Positions 25,942-38,975 of a stretch of 39,131 nucleotides of DNA are shown here, one piece after another (the stretch's first letter is position 1; the number at the start of each line of letters is the position of its first letter). The notes beneath the pieces are model-generated. The model did not search any database. It was not told the origin of the DNA and was given only the letters and a program-made list of their open reading frames with translations. This DNA is from a virus, in the IMG/VR virus record IMGVR_UViG_3300048597_000082, positions 1 through 39,131 of that record; one strand, 5' to 3'. A program made the position numbers and the translations under genes.

Positions 25942-26516
25942 CACGCTGCCTCCAGCGCGCGCACGCGAGCGCCGCGGGCCAGTTCGACAAGCCATTGCGC
26001 CAGCGCCAGCGGCGTGTGCTCGCGTTCGGCCTTGCTGATGTGCGGCCGATAGTCCGTGCGTTTCCGGCTCTGGACGACGTGCGTCGGCTCGTCAATGCGC
26101 ATGGGCATCTCCGGCACGTCGCGTGGCGCAATCCCTACGATGTAGAGCAGCGTCGCCTTCTCGGCACGGTGGCCGAACCAGTGCTGATGAATCGGCAGCG
26201 TCCAGCCGCCCACAGTGTCGAAGCGGCCGGGTGCTGGCAGATCGCAGGCCGCCCACAGTGTCGAAGCGGCCGGGTGCTCAAGCACGCCGCCCCATTGCCG
26301 CACCTGCTCGACTGCCCAGGGCGCAAGTTCCTTCTCGTCTGGCCGCGGCTTGGCAAAGGTCCGCAGCCGACCCCATGCGCGGCACGGCGGGTGTGCCACT
26401 ACGGGCGCGGCACCTGGCCAGCGGCGGGCGTCGCGTTCGATGTCCCAAACATCGCAGCCAAGCAGCGTCTTGTAGACGCTGTCCGAACGTGCAAAAAGGA
26501 TCGCAACTTTGCGCAT
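25941..26516 (-). CDS. DNA methylase-like phage protein, catalytic status unclear
   Basis: A 191-residue protein. VAHPPCRAWGRL (about residues 40-51) resembles the Pro-Pro-Cys motif of cytosine-5 methyltransferases, and GGVLEHPAASTLW the ENV-like strand. Later segments GGWTLPIHQHWFGHRAEK and LLYIVGI recall a family of short phage proteins annotated as methylase-like. A full SAM-binding FxGxG motif is not seen, so it may be a degenerate or different enzyme. Two copies of a 31-base repeat lie inside it. Either GTG 26519 or ATG 26516 may be the start. Confidence 0.55.
   Translation of the reverse strand: MRKVAILFARSDSVYKTLLGCDVWDIERDARRWPGAAPVVAHPPCRAWGRLRTFAKPRPDEKELAPWAVEQVRQWGGVLEHPAASTLWAACDLPAPGRFDTVGGWTLPIHQHWFGHRAEKATLLYIVGIAPRDVPEMPMRIDEPTHVVQSRKRTDYRPHISKAEREHTPLALAQWLVELARGARVRALEAA
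26205..26278. repeat. 31-base exact direct repeat read in two frames
   Basis: Bases 26205-26235 and 26248-26278 are identical, 43 bases apart. Because 43 is not a multiple of three, the same DNA encodes HPAASTLWA in one copy and PAPGRFDTVGG in the other within one continuous gene. Deletion between copies would remove 43 bases and shift the frame. Confidence 0.95.
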
Positions 26517-29053
26517 CACGCCGCCTCGCGTAGATCCGCCAGTTCGTCCAGATCGAACAGGGTCGGCATGGCGACCTCGGCTTCCTTCGCCTTCAGGTAC
26601 TGCACACCGTCGAAGAAGTAGCGCGCGTTCAGTTCATGGCCACGGCCGCGGCGCTTCAGATGCAGCGCCCGATACGGCACCGTCATCAGGCCGCCGAACG
26701 GATCGAACACAAGCTCGCCCGGCATCGTGAACTGCGTAATGGCACGGTCCGCGATGTCGAACTGCATCGGGCACAAGTGCATCTCGCGGCCTGCCGCAGA
26801 CTGCGCACCGTTCAGCGTCAGCATCCGCGTGACGTCCGCCCACACTTCATCGGACCAGGACTGCGGCTGCAGCAGCATGAAGGTCACCGGCAGGCGGCCT
26901 TGCGCCTCCAGCGCCTCGCCCACGCGCACGTGGTGCTCATAGTCGTAGACCTGATGCAGCGAGTAGTCTTTGAACAGCTTGAACAGCTGCTCGTGCGTCA
27001 GCCCGTCCAGTTCTTCGGAGCGCAGCAGGCGGTTGCCGTTGGAGCGGGCAAAAGCGTGGGCATCGATCTGCCAGCGGCTGCGCGAGTACTGGCCCTTGTC
27101 CTTGATGACAGGCTCGTCGGCGTAGCTCTTCTCCGTGCTTGTCGGCGGCTTGCGGAAGATCAGCAAGTACTCCGGCATGCCGACGCCCATCTTCGTGCCG
27201 TCCTTGCATTGCTCCGTCCAGCCGAGGCGGTAGGTCTGGTTGTTCTCCCGCACCACGTCGGTGACGATCGTCTTCATGCCCATGTAGCCGAAGCCGTGGC
27301 GCGTGAAGTGCGCAATCGCGTCGGCGTGAAACGGATAGACGGTCTGGAACCCGAGGCCTGTCAGGCCGCCCGGCACTATCCGGTCCTTGACGTGAATGCA
27401 GCAGATCCGCCCGGGCTTGAGGACTCGGAAGAGCTCCGGCGTCAGGAAATCCATCTGCTGCCAGAAGTGCGCGTTCGAGTCCGTGTGGCCGAAGTCGTTG
27501 TAGGACGGCGTGTATTCGTACTGCGTGCTGAACGGAACCGACGTCAGGATCAGGTGCACGCTCTCGGATTCCATCGCGGCCGTCTCAGTGACCGTGTCGT
27601 TATTGATCGCGGTCCAGCCCTCGCCAGTCACCTCGATGCGCTCCACGCCGATCGACCGTTGCAGCGCCTGCGCGATTGCAGCCTGGCTCATTCCGTACTC
27701 CTTGATGATCGCGGTCATGCGCGCCCTTTGCTCGTTGTGCTGTTGCCACTTCTGCTCAAGGATCCGGCGCACCTCACGCTCGGCTTCCGTGTAGATGAGA
27801 TCGATGCGGACCTGCCGCGTCTGCAGAAAGCGGTGAATGCGGTGAATCGCCTGGATGAAGTCGGCGAACTTGAACCCGATGCCGAGGAAGATCGCCCAGT
27901 GGCAGTGCCGCTGCAGGTTGCAGCCGCTGCCGAGCATCACCGGCTTGGCGGCGAGCTCAAGCATCAGCCCGTCGGCAAAGTCCGCCACGAGCTGCTCGCG
28001 CTCGTCCAAGTCTTGTGCGCCCCAAACACTGGCCACGCCAGGGATGGCCTTTTCGATGGCGTGCCGCTCGGCCTCGAGGTCGTGCCAGATGATCCGGTGC
28101 GCTTGCGGGTTCTCTGCGCGCAGTTCGAGGAGCTTGTCGATCCGCTGCGGCAGGCTCTCGCGCTTCTCGCGCGCGCTGTCCACCACGCCCACCGCCGCAT
28201 GCTTGAGCAGCCGTCCCTGCCCCCAGGCTTCGTGCCCCGCGTCATCGTGATCGCTCGGCAGCTCATGCCAGCGGATGTCTAGCTCCGGCAGTGAGTAGCC
28301 CGCATCGCTGTAGCCAAGGTCGGACGGCCGCTCGATGAAGATCGCCCACGACGCGCACCACAGCCAGAACTCGCGCTCTTTGTGCGGGTGGATCGTCAGC
28401 ACGTCGGCTTTCGTGCTGTCGCGCTTGAAGAAGCGCGTCTTCGCCTGCCCGACATCCATCACGTCGAGGTAGGCGCTGTAGGCCAGCAGCTCGATGTAGT
28501 CATTCGGGCTCGGTGTTGCCGTGGCCACGAAGCGATACTTCACCCCTTCGGTGCGCGTGCCGCTGCGATCGTCGCCAGCAAACAGGCGCATGAAGTTGCG
28601 GAACGTCTTGCTGCCACCAAAGCCGCGCAGCACTGCGGCCTCGTCCAGGCTGCTGCCGATGAAGTGCCGCGGGTCCAGCTTCTCGTCGCGCACCGTCTCG
28701 TAGTTGGTGATGTAGACGCCGGTGGCTTCGGCTTCTTCGATGCGGCGGATAAAGCGCACCTGCAGGCCAAGCATCACGCCGTCGCGGATGAATTCCTGCC
28801 GCACGCCAAGCGGCGCCACGATCAGAAAGCGGCCGCCCGTGTGCTTGACGATCAGCCGCGCGATCTCCAACTGCATGAGCGTCTTGCCGAGGCCGAACGC
28901 GGCAAAGATGGCGCGCCGCCCGCCTGAGAGCGCCCACAGCACGATGTCGCGCTGATGCGGCTTCAGGCAGGGCGACAGTTCGGCAGGATCAACATCGATC
29001 CCTTGCCGGTCTGCGAGCGTGACTTTCGCGCGCAGAAACTCCTCATAGTTCAC
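26516..29053 (-). CDS. SF2 helicase-DNA methyltransferase fusion
   Basis: An 845-residue two-part enzyme. N-terminal: a SNF2-like helicase with P-loop AAFGLGKT (51-58), motif II LDEAAVLRG (about 136-144), motif III VATATPSPNDY (about 176-186) and a motif VI-like QAIHRIHRFL. C-terminal, from about 510: a beta-class N4/N6-adenine or cytosine methyltransferase with a motif IV-like HLILTSVPFSTQYEY and motif I-like ELVFDPFGGLMTVP. Probably it translocates on DNA and methylates it, protecting phage DNA or marking host DNA. The GTG at 29053 is chosen for the AAAGGAG just upstream. It is the largest early gene. Confidence 0.85.
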   Translation of the reverse strand: MNYEEFLRAKVTLADRQGIDVDPAELSPCLKPHQRDIVLWALSGGRRAIFAAFGLGKTLMQLEIARLIVKHTGGRFLIVAPLGVRQEFIRDGVMLGLQVRFIRRIEEAEATGVYITNYETVRDEKLDPRHFIGSSLDEAAVLRGFGGSKTFRNFMRLFAGDDRSGTRTEGVKYRFVATATPSPNDYIELLAYSAYLDVMDVGQAKTRFFKRDSTKADVLTIHPHKEREFWLWCASWAIFIERPSDLGYSDAGYSLPELDIRWHELPSDHDDAGHEAWGQGRLLKHAAVGVVDSAREKRESLPQRIDKLLELRAENPQAHRIIWHDLEAERHAIEKAIPGVASVWGAQDLDEREQLVADFADGLMLELAAKPVMLGSGCNLQRHCHWAIFLGIGFKFADFIQAIHRIHRFLQTRQVRIDLIYTEAEREVRRILEQKWQQHNEQRARMTAIIKEYGMSQAAIAQALQRSIGVERIEVTGEGWTAINNDTVTETAAMESESVHLILTSVPFSTQYEYTPSYNDFGHTDSNAHFWQQMDFLTPELFRVLKPGRICCIHVKDRIVPGGLTGLGFQTVYPFHADAIAHFTRHGFGYMGMKTIVTDVVRENNQTYRLGWTEQCKDGTKMGVGMPEYLLIFRKPPTSTEKSYADEPVIKDKGQYSRSRWQIDAHAFARSNGNRLLRSEELDGLTHEQLFKLFKDYSLHQVYDYEHHVRVGEALEAQGRLPVTFMLLQPQSWSDEVWADVTRMLTLNGAQSAAGREMHLCPMQFDIADRAITQFTMPGELVFDPFGGLMTVPYRALHLKRRGRGHELNARYFFDGVQYLKAKEAEVAMPTLFDLDELADLREAA

Positions 29054-29066
29054 GTGCAGTCTCCTT

Positions 29067-29237
29067 TCAGACGCCGAGGCGCTTGGCAATGGCGCGCAGA
29101 GCGGCATCGCGCTGCTCAGGCGTCAGTTCGGGGTGTTCGCGGTCAAGCTCGGCCTTGGCGCGCTCGTAGGCCCAGTAGGGGTTGCCACGCTGCGGAGCAG
29201 GCCGTCGGATCAGCGGAAACTCGCGCGGCTTATTCAT
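29067..29237 (-). CDS. Small hypothetical protein
   Basis: A 56-residue basic protein, MNKPREFPLIRRPAPQRG, then a charged helix (WAYERAKAELDREHPELT) ending RAIAKRLGV. GGAG lies 9 bases before the ATG. It overlaps the upstream tiny membrane-protein gene by 8 bases. It lies just before the helicase-methyltransferase fusion gene. No function can be assigned. Confidence 0.6.
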   Translation of the reverse strand: MNKPREFPLIRRPAPQRGNPYWAYERAKAELDREHPELTPEQRDAALRAIAKRLGV

Positions 29238-35879: not shown

Positions 35880-36367
35880 TGAAACGCAGCGCCACGATCA
35901 GCCAGTGCGGCCGCTACCGGTACGAGCTCGCGCGCACGTGGGTCGAACCGGACAGCGCGATCGCCGATGCGTATGCCGTCTTCATCATGCTCAACCCGAG
36001 CACGGCAGACGCATCGCAGGACGACCCGACGATCCGCCGCTGCATCAGCTACGCGAGGCAGTGGGGCATGGGCGGCCTCGTCGTCGTGAATCTGTTCGCG
36101 TGGCGCGCCACAGACCCGCGCGAGCTCTACGAGCACCCGGACGAGAAGATCGGCGAGCAGAACGACGAATACATCGTCGCGAACTGCCGCATGGCGCGGA
36201 TCGTCGTCGCTGCATGGGGCACGCGCGGCGCGCTGCTCGACCGCGGCCGCCAAGTGCGCGCGCTCGTCGAGGACCTGCACGTGCTGCGACTGACCAAAGA
36301 CGGCCACCCGGCGCACCCGCTCTATCTGCCGAAGTTCCTCGATCCGATCCCTTGGAGCCAGCAATGA
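35879..36367 (+). CDS. DUF1643-family protein
   Basis: A 162-residue protein: CGRYRYELARTW, FIMLNPSTADASQDDPTIRR, GGLVVVNLFAWRATDP and RIVVAAWGTRG are the landmarks of DUF1643. Its biochemical role is unknown. Members occur in phages and plasmids. It lies just before a one-gene gap from the DpdA-like gene, so a nucleotide- or base-related role would fit the context, but that is inference. The ATG shares its A with the upstream stop. Confidence 0.82.
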   Translation: MKRSATISQCGRYRYELARTWVEPDSAIADAYAVFIMLNPSTADASQDDPTIRRCISYARQWGMGGLVVVNLFAWRATDPRELYEHPDEKIGEQNDEYIVANCRMARIVVAAWGTRGALLDRGRQVRALVEDLHVLRLTKDGHPAHPLYLPKFLDPIPWSQQ

Positions 36368-36600
36368 CCACCGTCACCATCGACCAGCAGATCGCCTGCG
36401 TCAAGCGCGAGCTCGCGCAGCGCCGACGCGTCTATCCGCGCTGGGTGCAGTCCGGACAGTTCGGCTACACCCAGCAGAAGGCCGATCAAGAGATCGCCGG
36501 CATGGAGGCAGTGCTCGCCACGCTCGAGCGGGTGAAGTCGGAGAACGAAGCGAAGACGGCGCCCGCGCTCGATCTCGGCGACTGGCCGCTGCCCAGCTAA
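36364..36600 (+). CDS. Small helical protein, hypothetical
   Basis: A 78-residue protein starting MTTVTIDQQIACVKRELAQR, with a long charged helix (KADQEIAGMEAVLATLERVK) and an acidic end LDLGDWPLPS. It overlaps the DUF1643 stop as ATGA and shares a base with the next start (TAATG). Short helical proteins of this type are common in phage early operons; no function is known. Confidence 0.62.
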   Translation: MTTVTIDQQIACVKRELAQRRRVYPRWVQSGQFGYTQQKADQEIAGMEAVLATLERVKSENEAKTAPALDLGDWPLPS

Positions 36601-37277
36601 TGCTTCACTACCACGGCACCCCAATCACCCCGCGCGCGCAGTTGCTGCGCATGACGGGCCGGATGTTCTGCGTGTCGTTCGCCAGGCCTGAAGACCTGCG
36701 GACCTGCCTGCAGATCGGTCAGTCCGTCATGTTCGACAACGGCGCCTTTTCGGCCTACACGCGCGGCGAGCCGTTCGACGAGAGCGGGTTCTATCGGTGG
36801 ATCGAGCCGATGCTGTCGCACCCGCATTGGGCCGTCGTTCCCGACGTGATCGGCGGCAGCGTCGAGCAGCAGCGCGAGCTCGTCGCCCGCTGGCCCTTCA
36901 GCAGGCAGCTCGGCCTGCCCGTCTGGCACCTTGGCGCGCCGCTCGATTACCTGCTCGAGCTCGCCGACGGGTGGCCACGCTTGTGCTTCGGTTCGTCCGG
37001 CGAGTTCTGGCGGATCGGCAGCCCGGCATGGTGCGGCCGGATGGACGAGGCATTCAACGCGCTCGCGCAGCGCGGCCTGCGTCCTTGGGTGCACGGCCTG
37101 CGCATGCTGGGCATGGCCGGCAACCACTGGCCACTCGCGTCGGCCGACTCGACCAACGTCGCGCAGAACTGGCACCGGGACACCGGCTGCGCGGAATGCA
37201 AAGCGGCGCAGGTCGACGCCGTGCAGTGCCCGACCACTTGGACCCTTCAACCTACTCAGAGCACCCTATGCCTTTGA
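36600..37277 (+). CDS. DpdA/TGT-like protein (7-deazaguanine DNA transglycosylase candidate)
   Basis: A 225-residue protein that reads as a tRNA-guanine-transglycosylase-like barrel. Landmarks: QSVMFDNGAFSAY (Asp46), HWAVVPDVIGG (Asp82), LGLPVWHLGAPLDYLLEL, WPRLCFGSSGEFW, MDEAFN, VHGLRMLG and SADSTNVA (Asp183). Asp46, Asp82 and Asp183 are placed like the substrate and nucleophile Asp residues of TGT. The C-terminal HRDTGCAECKAAQVDAVQC could bind zinc as TGT does. DpdA enzymes swap guanine in DNA for preQ0-type bases and protect against restriction. The next gene, a YhhQ-like transporter, supports this. It is shorter than most TGTs. Confidence 0.66.
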   Translation: MLHYHGTPITPRAQLLRMTGRMFCVSFARPEDLRTCLQIGQSVMFDNGAFSAYTRGEPFDESGFYRWIEPMLSHPHWAVVPDVIGGSVEQQRELVARWPFSRQLGLPVWHLGAPLDYLLELADGWPRLCFGSSGEFWRIGSPAWCGRMDEAFNALAQRGLRPWVHGLRMLGMAGNHWPLASADSTNVAQNWHRDTGCAECKAAQVDAVQCPTTWTLQPTQSTLCL

Positions 37278-37780
37278 TCCTTGCTTGTCTGCTGTACGCC
37301 GGCGCCATGATTGCCGCCAACCTATCGATCGCGGCCTTCGGCCCATGGGTGAGCCCAATCAATTCGTTCCTGCTGATCGGCCTCGACCTGACGCTGCGCG
37401 ATCGCCTGCACGACGCATGGAGCGGCCGCGGCCTGCGGTGGAAGATGCCGATCCTGATCCTCGTGTCGGCACTGGCCACGTACCTGCTCAACCCGGCGGC
37501 CGCGCAGATCGCCATCGCGTCCGCGCTCGCCTTCGGACTGGCGGCAGCGACCGACGGCCTCGTGTACCACCGGCTGCGCACGTCCGCGCGCTGGGGCGAG
37601 TACCTGCGGCGCACCAACGGCAGCAACGCGGCCGGCGCCATGGTCGACTCGATCGCGTTCCCGACGATCGCCTTCGGCGTGCTGATGCCGCACATCATCG
37701 CGATGCAGTTCGTCGCCAAGGTGGCCGGCGGATTTGTGTGGTCGCTGATCCTGCGGCGCGCAGTGATCGAGGCGCGCTGA
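37268..37780 (+). CDS. YhhQ/VUT-family transporter for 7-deazaguanine precursor
   Basis: A 170-residue inner-membrane protein with about five or six hydrophobic helices. NSFLLIGLDLTLRDRLHD, the Ala-rich ASALAFGLAAATDGLVY, and a later NGSNAAGAMVDSIAFPTIAFG are landmarks of the VUT (DUF165, YhhQ) family, known to import the queuosine precursors preQ0 and preQ1. Its start overlaps the DpdA-like gene end by 10 bases, so the two are coupled. Together they would let the phage feed a base-modification enzyme with imported precursor. Confidence 0.78.
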   Translation: MPLILACLLYAGAMIAANLSIAAFGPWVSPINSFLLIGLDLTLRDRLHDAWSGRGLRWKMPILILVSALATYLLNPAAAQIAIASALAFGLAAATDGLVYHRLRTSARWGEYLRRTNGSNAAGAMVDSIAFPTIAFGVLMPHIIAMQFVAKVAGGFVWSLILRRAVIEAR

Positions 37781-37794
37781 CGGAACGCACGCAG

Positions 37795-38001
37795 ATGCTG
37801 TTCTTGACCGAGCTCGAACTGCGCGAACTGACGCGCCTGCAGCGGCCGTCGGCGATCGCCCGGTGGCTGCGCGAGCACGGTTATCCTTTCGACATTGCTG
37901 CCGACGGCTGGCCCCGCGTCCTGCGGGCCTACGTCGAGCAGCGCCTGAGCGGCGACACCACGCCGACGAAGAAACGCGAGCCAGCCCTGCGCCTTGTATG
38001 A
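37795..38001 (+). CDS. DUF4224 protein, excisionase-like position
   Basis: A 68-residue protein. FLTELELRELTRLQRPSAIARWLREHGYPF matches DUF4224, small proteins commonly found just before phage tyrosine integrase genes. Their role is unproven, but position and small basic helices suggest a directionality or regulatory factor. Its TGA overlaps the integrase ATG. The 14 bases before its start contain no strong ribosome site. Confidence 0.8.
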   Translation: MLFLTELELRELTRLQRPSAIARWLREHGYPFDIAADGWPRVLRAYVEQRLSGDTTPTKKREPALRLV

Positions 38002-38975
38002 AACGCGATCGGCACCTGCCGGCAGGCATGTACTTCAAGCACGGCCGGCACTGGCTCGTGCGTCGCAACAAGTGGCACCCGCTGCCCGTCGAACTAGGTC
38101 CCGCCCTTGCCGAGTACGCCCGCCTGCTGAACGCGCCGCGCGCCGGCATGGACGCATCGATCGATCAGGCGCTGGCCAACGCCAAGGCGCGCGGACTGGC
38201 CGAGAACACGCTGGCACAGTACGGAGCAATCGCCCCGCGGCTGAAGCACATATTCGCCGAGTTCACGCCGGCCGACGTGCGCCCAGTGCACGTGCGCAAG
38301 ATGCTCAACGCGATGGCCGACACGCCGAACATGGCCAACCGGTTCCGCAACCTGCTCGTGCTGGCGCTGCAGGCCGCCGTCGACGCCGGCGAGATCGACC
38401 GCAACCCGGCCAAGGAAGTCGAGCCGCTGCGCGAGGCAAAGCGCGATCGCTATATCACCGACGACGAGTTCGCCCGGATCTACGACGCGGCCCCGCCCGC
38501 CGTGCAGATCTTCATGGGACTGGCCTACCTCACCGGCCAGCGCATCGGCGACGTGATCGGCATCAAGCATGCGGACCTGCTCGAGCAGGGCATCGCGTTC
38601 CGCCAGCAGAAGACCGACGCGAAGTTGATCATCGCGTGGACGCCGGAACTGCGCGCGATCGTCCAGCGCGCGAAGGATCTGCGCCAGGTGCGCGGATGGT
38701 GGCTGCTATGCAAGCGCAACGGCCAGCCGTACAGTTACAAGGGCATGCGCGATGCGTTCGACCGCGCCACGATCAAGGCCGGCGTCGAGGATTGCACGCC
38801 GCATGATCTGCGCGCCAAGAGCGGCACCGACGCGAAGAAGCAGGGACTCAACCCGACGCTGCTGCTCGGCCACAGCAGCGAGCAGCAGACGAAGCGATAC
38901 ATCCGTCAGCGCCTCGTCGATGTCGTGCACGGCCCGCGTCTCTTAGACGCGTCTAAGAAATCGGGCGCTAAGTGA
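37998..38975 (+). CDS. int: Tyrosine integrase
   Basis: A 325-residue site-specific recombinase that would join phage and host DNA. The N-terminal 50 residues are a short DNA-binding module. Residues about 55-140 are the core-binding domain. The catalytic residues are in order: Arg182 (LTGQRIGDV), Lys205 (RQQKTDAK), His269 and Arg272 (CTPHDLRAKSG), His292 (LLGHSSEQQ) and Tyr301 (TKRYIRQ). The gene end runs into the terminal repeat and holds an 18-base palindrome. ATG 37998 overlaps the upstream stop. Confidence 0.93.
   Translation: MKRDRHLPAGMYFKHGRHWLVRRNKWHPLPVELGPALAEYARLLNAPRAGMDASIDQALANAKARGLAENTLAQYGAIAPRLKHIFAEFTPADVRPVHVRKMLNAMADTPNMANRFRNLLVLALQAAVDAGEIDRNPAKEVEPLREAKRDRYITDDEFARIYDAAPPAVQIFMGLAYLTGQRIGDVIGIKHADLLEQGIAFRQQKTDAKLIIAWTPELRAIVQRAKDLRQVRGWWLLCKRNGQPYSYKGMRDAFDRATIKAGVEDCTPHDLRAKSGTDAKKQGLNPTLLLGHSSEQQTKRYIRQRLVDVVHGPRLLDASKKSGAK
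38941..38958. other. Perfect palindrome inside the integrase 3' end
   Basis: TCTTAGACGCGTCTAAGA is an 18-base perfect palindrome within the last codons of int. Its two halves are a minus-strand and a plus-strand GTCTAAGA, the same 8-mer found twice more in 1-189. It could be a site for integrase or an excision factor, or simply a hairpin at the int transcript end. Confidence 0.75.

Follow-up and report, generated by a model that had tools for sequence, protein, structure and literature searches.

The window (the whole stretch of viral DNA analysed here, a record of 39,131 bases with a G+C content of 66.5%) carries two overlapping genes, ORF A and ORF B, directly upstream of an excisionase and an integrase. 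The features of this region are as follows:

36364-36600, plus strand: 78-aa phage ORF upstream of ORF A, with no more than a weak match to phrog_19667 (E=0.0033)
36600-37277, plus strand: ORF A, 225 aa, short DpdA-type (phrog_887) guanine transglycosylase with D46, D82 and D183 invariant
37268-37780, plus strand: ORF B, 170 aa, Vut_1/YhhQ (QPTR)-family membrane protein
37795-38001, plus strand: excisionase, directly 3' of the pair (phrog_4764, 9.2e-14)
37998-38975, plus strand: tyrosine integrase (phrog_1, 9.6e-47)

The overlap between ORF A and ORF B is exactly 10 bases, as a sequence-only reading of this DNA had described for a TGT-like gene and a VUT/YhhQ gene, and the start of ORF B lies inside the end of ORF A. 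Upstream, the TAA of the 78-aa ORF shares one base with the ATG of ORF A (TAATG), which suggests translational coupling of the 78-aa ORF to ORF A. Given the TAATG and the 10-base overlap, translation of ORF A and ORF B is probably coupled; no clear ribosome site was seen at the coupled genes. The portal, head-closure and injection-type proteins of the window match P22-like families, and the earlier description of a P22-like temperate phage with the pair beside int is borne out. Elsewhere in the window, an 863-aa protein (26516-29107, minus strand) matches both phrog_16 (phage DNA helicase) and phrog_67 (DNA methyltransferase), and is possibly an anti-restriction protein.

In profile searches, residues 1-190 of ORF A match phrog_887, annotated 'queuine tRNA-ribosyltransferase', at E=4.2e-43, and homologues occur in 108 phage records and in no fewer than 232 stretches of viral contigs; ORF A is therefore not a chance ORF. 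Pfam and NCBIfam gave no significant match, and the Pfam DpdA family PF23859 did not match ORF A at E<=10; the protein at locus L085 matches PF23859 at 1.9e-36. In an alignment of 56 diverse relatives, D46 (DNGAF), D82 (PDV) and D183 (SADS) are invariant, in agreement with the three well-placed Asp residues noted earlier in a TGT-like protein, and H3, H5, H110 and H165 are likewise invariant. The zinc-like C-terminus noted at the same time fared differently: C197-x2-C200 is confined to close relatives and absent beyond them in the same alignment, so that a structural zinc site was dropped as support for a TGT relationship.

The AlphaFold2 model of ORF A (pLDDT 94.8) has eight strands in barrel order, a predicted TIM barrel of the kind that the proposed enzyme would have. 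Phage queuine tRNA-ribosyltransferases are among the best viral matches to this model by Foldseek (best named match, E=6.7e-9). Against the PDB, TIM barrels in general top the list, and the archaeosine TGT 1j2b (prob 0.98, E=0.014) stands at rank 13 after other TIM barrels. PDB sequence searches with ORF A returned nothing credible, and hhalign comparison of the ORF A family with 12 bacterial TGT gave no signal; because of the latter, the link of ORF A to TGT rests on the fold and on intermediates. The phrog_15826 family, members of which are annotated as DpdA-like transglycosylase in some phages, aligns with the ORF A family along 147 columns (hhalign 90%), and its three Asp fall at matching positions. 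At the profile level, the DpdA/TGT assignment proposed earlier has a match in phrog_887, none in PF23859 and no signal against bacterial TGT. Sequence comparison places ORF A firmly in the short phage DpdA family (phrog_887, MED16/7-11 type), and its model, of high confidence, is a (beta/alpha)8 barrel as in the tRNA-guanine transglycosylase superfamily.

The closest tested relatives of ORF A are the DpdA proteins of Pantoea phage MED16 (41% identity) and Salmonella phage 7-11 (36% identity), DpdA-only phages (Hutinet 2019 group 3; MED16 'DpdA/TGT_1' cluster) whose enzymes belong to phrog_887 like ORF A; MED16 DpdA has the same three Asp residues. By LC-MS, dADG makes up about 0.13% of G in MED16 DNA (PMC8306585) and 50 per 10^6 nt in 7-11 DNA (PMC6884629). 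By analogy, these measurements support DNA as the target of the window's enzyme. MED16 DpdA differs in being longer (261 aa) and solo, where ORF A is paired with a Vut gene; a search of the MED16 record yielded no Vut. If the enzyme acted on tRNA instead, the pair would salvage queuosine precursor, alter wobble bases of host or phage tRNA and tune translation in infection or lysogeny. The TGT-like fold of ORF A, the annotation of phrog_887 and the known part of YhhQ in salvaging queuosine for tRNA (PMC11130926) would all fit such a role. We nevertheless consider it unlikely, since ORF A has only 225 residues and no conserved zinc site, all sampled hosts carry their own TGT, and 7-deazaguanine is found in the DNA of the homologous phages 7-11 and MED16.

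For ORF B, the Pfam search gives Vut_1 at 9.6e-13 (49.2 bits, cut-off 27.2), over residues 77-154 only, and phrog_4899 is matched at 5e-38. Its score against TIGR00697, the queuosine precursor transporter equivalog, is 27.7 bits, under the cut-off of 50.95. The VUT/YhhQ assignment made earlier therefore stands at the level of the Pfam family and falls short of the equivalog. The AlphaFold2 model (pLDDT 94.4) has six long helices, predicting a polytopic membrane protein, and Foldseek found no significant match to it in the PDB. Residues D45, R115, S119, D127, F131 and A135 are common to 16 phage proteins and four bacterial YhhQ-type proteins, and membership of ORF B in the Vut_1/YhhQ family is firm on these comparisons. 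E. coli YhhQ (COG1738/QPTR, TIGR00697), a preQ0/preQ1 transporter, is a member of the same Vut_1 family, but it has about 220-260 residues to the 170 of ORF B, in which the N-terminal half has diverged. Because ORF B scores under the TIGR00697 cut-off, its substrate may differ from preQ0.

The pair also recurs elsewhere. A search of viral contigs with ORF B alone yielded 11 loci, and a DpdA-type gene touches the Vut gene in all 11: six, of which one is truncated where its contig stops, are of the ORF A family, one is of the PF23859 type and four are of the phrog_15826 type. The PF23859 / phrog_1279 enzymes (phiLM21-type DpdA) are TGT-like transglycosylases by annotation and adjoin a Vut gene in some phages (L085, L207), as ORF A does; they differ in that PF23859 does not hit ORF A and comparison of the two profiles gave no alignment. 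In GenBank, the pair occurs in phages of Rhizobium, Sinorhizobium, Pectobacterium, Acinetobacter and Escherichia/Klebsiella/Enterobacter, and further carriers are phages of Mycobacterium, Rhodococcus, Arthrobacter and cyanobacteria. Both gene orders are found, with Vut upstream in some phages and downstream in others. One or two genes intervene in a few, and in Erebus and RHph_Y55 the DpdA gene lies at another genome site, away from Vut. In the phage ReqiPine5, a PAPS reductase adjoins the Vut-DpdA pair.

Viewed from DpdA, a Vut gene lies within 1 kb on the same strand in 98 of 182 loci, and Vut is the commonest neighbour family. The pair state changes at least 16 times on a tree of 76 dereplicated rows, a count inflated by dereplication that kept differing states, and pairing is most frequent in the clade to which the window belongs (13 of 18 rows at >=55% identity). 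Hutinet 2019 reported DpdA-only phages and mentioned that some have YhhQ, but saw 'no correlation'; by the present counts, the correlation between Vut and DpdA is strong. These data also bear on the idea that the importer is a lysogenic-conversion gene that aids queuosine-precursor salvage by the lysogen, its nearness to DpdA being a loose association of the moron region. The phage is temperate, the genes lie beside xis and int, and DpdA without Vut (solo DpdA) is common, all of which such a gene would accommodate. It would not readily account for the tight overlap, the occurrence of both gene orders, the pairing with three DpdA families in phages that include Drexlerviridae and mycobacteriophages, or the presence of DpdA at every Vut-anchored contig locus, and we regard it as quite improbable.

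The only complete phages examined that have Vut and no DpdA are the mEp021 group (the 8.8-kb fragment MT837598 is not counted). In Enterobacteria phage mEp021 and six relatives, the Vut gene overlaps a gene for a phrog_757 'DNA methyltransferase' (L101:2968-4235). We considered this neighbour as a cryptic DpdA and rejected it, as it belongs to phrog_757 and is unlike ORF A and MED16 DpdA; no DpdA of the three types was found elsewhere in the mEp021 genome. The phrog_757 protein is perhaps another enzyme that uses the imported base.

At DpdA loci lacking Vut, QueD or an 81-aa phrog_37496 protein frequently takes the neighbouring position. QueD is an enzyme of preQ0 synthesis. The QueD neighbours match Pfam PTPS at 1e-18 to 1e-30 (the protein at L112 exceeds the TIGR03367 cut-off), and at 8 of the 76 loci it is QueD, and not Vut, that adjoins this DpdA family (L002:5594-5998, L010:6531-7076, L112:5627-6052, L137:4675-5004, L097:3684-4001 and others). 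Vut is present in 31 of the 76 rows and the two never occur together (0/76; hypergeometric p=0.011, uncorrected for ancestry), an exchange that fits a precursor either made or imported. For example, L002, which is among the nearest tree rows to the window, reads QueF-like, QueD, DpdA, xis, int, where the window reads DpdA, Vut, xis, int; the L002 record yielded no Vut. In four importer-less close relatives, a PP-loop ATPase lies one gene past DpdA (L013:2464-3282, L014:5550-6398, L016:5448-6266, L019:5711-6562), and the L013 protein matches phrog_424 (PAPS-reductase-like).

The exchange between Vut and QueD also bears on the substrate. The importer might carry a different purine or deazapurine, with DpdA inserting a base other than a preQ0 derivative, and the sub-threshold TIGR00697 score of ORF B, the confinement of its Vut_1 match to part of the protein, the variation in substrate among QPTR members (PMC11130926) and the phrog_757 neighbour of Vut in mEp021 phages all lean that way. 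That loci without Vut have a gene of the preQ0 route next to a DpdA of this family argues for a preQ0-type base, and a different substrate seems to us a rather slim prospect.

The phrog_37496 gene lies at L154:4759-5004, L134:4756-5004, L048:3976-4230, L002:5350-5601 and some 30 other loci; it frequently shares 4 bases with the DpdA gene, and in GenBank phages was found only adjoining DpdA. Its product has an invariant Cys, VE and HE, and its alignment with QueF takes in the catalytic Cys and the His-Glu, with hhalign giving 66-79% and scores of 31-34. Column shuffles scored at most 16 in 60, and a smaller profile of 11 sequences gave a weaker score of 19.7. The alignment is suggestive of a minimal QueF, and the protein may convert an inserted nitrile base. 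We see as evenly balanced the proposal of a modular system, in which one short DpdA family works with swappable partners (Vut, QueD, phrog_37496) that set the source or fate of the base. Compared with a literature set that lacks the two most relevant recent papers, both the exchange of partners beside DpdA and the recurrent coupling of Vut with three DpdA families appear new.

The sequence-only reading had listed no preQ0 synthesis genes. Profile searches found no QueC, no PTPS/QueD and no QueF-like gene in the window, which may be an incomplete record; this upholds the claim for queC and queD. MED16 and 7-11 resemble the window in this respect, having no reported preQ0 synthesis genes. A restriction of the importer to hosts unable to make preQ0 was rejected: a strong QueC is present in 12 of 14 hosts with a paired prophage and in 28 of 30 unpaired hosts. 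Because 12 of the 14 have their own QueC, the importer is no simple substitute for missing host synthesis; the effect of import would then be a larger supply of precursor in the infected cell, and not a stand-in for an absent pathway. Mycobacteriophages with the pair depart from this host pattern, as M. smegmatis reportedly has no preQ0 genes.

The analysis shows how the two genes are built, which families they belong to, which residues are conserved, what fold is predicted and that the genes are repeatedly coupled; substrate, DNA target, final base and benefit are inferred as follows. The pair is fairly probably a scavenging-type 7-deazaguanine DNA-modification cassette, in which precursor import is followed by DpdA exchange into phage DNA. 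The Vut/YhhQ-family protein would carry a 7-deazaguanine base, with preQ0 or preQ1 as the likeliest, into the cell, whether infected or lysogenic. Judging from its homologues, the short DpdA would then swap guanine in phage DNA for the imported base by a transglycosylase mechanism, its conserved Asp residues presumably serving as nucleophile, acid/base and base-recognition residues. DpdA relatives are established to exchange bases in the TGT manner, leaving the strand unbroken. The inserted base may next be converted to dADG, as found in the two related phages, by an activity of the host or of the phage. The phage would make no precursor, relying on import and the host pool. Of the scavenging pair as first proposed, both families, the barrel and the absence of QueC and QueD from the window have held, and the zinc motif has not; neither protein passes the strictest curated models (PF23859 and TIGR00697), and insertion and substrate keep the conditional form given here.

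The expected benefit would be partial evasion of restriction or of another nuclease. Against the cassette reading stand the trace level of dADG in the relatives and, in MED16, the lack of clear protection from restriction enzymes (PMC8306585); nor is a transporter known to be needed by MED16 or 7-11. The trace level might also mean that one gene of the phage's pair, or both, has stopped working or is decaying, which is very unlikely given that both frames are intact, the catalytic residues are kept and the models are of high confidence.

If the scavenging cassette is real, some phages shield their DNA with a base whose precursor comes from their surroundings, and both modification and escape from restriction would depend on what neighbours release. 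It would explain the supply of DpdA-only phages and give a role to phrog_4899, which has no assigned function. The effect could then be tested in hosts that lack preQ0 synthesis; M. smegmatis is one, and some of its phages carry a Vut-DpdA pair.

The sequence-only reading had called such a cassette notable. Its novelty is lower than that: DpdA-only phages, phage YhhQ homologues (both described in 2019), the scavenging hypothesis and YhhQ in dpd islands are already in print, and the DNA of two homologous phages has been measured; to these the window contributes a well-preserved example. In bacteria, YhhQ occurs in about 9% of dpd islands (GATOR-GC preprint, PMC11888242), where, as in the window, a Vut/YhhQ transporter is linked to a DpdA-type enzyme. 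The islands differ in that dpdAB are required and further dpd genes are usual, whereas none was identified in the window, dpdB-K lying outside the profile searches. On bacterial chromosomes we also observed a QueC copy about 1-6 kb from a Vut gene (G005:C1:43712-44937, G006:C16:31591-32821, G010:C6:47378-48600), in two further cases together with a TGT-like gene (G007:C2:1146482-1149673, G023:C24:473050-479173). These five regions are probably dpd-type islands with their own importer.
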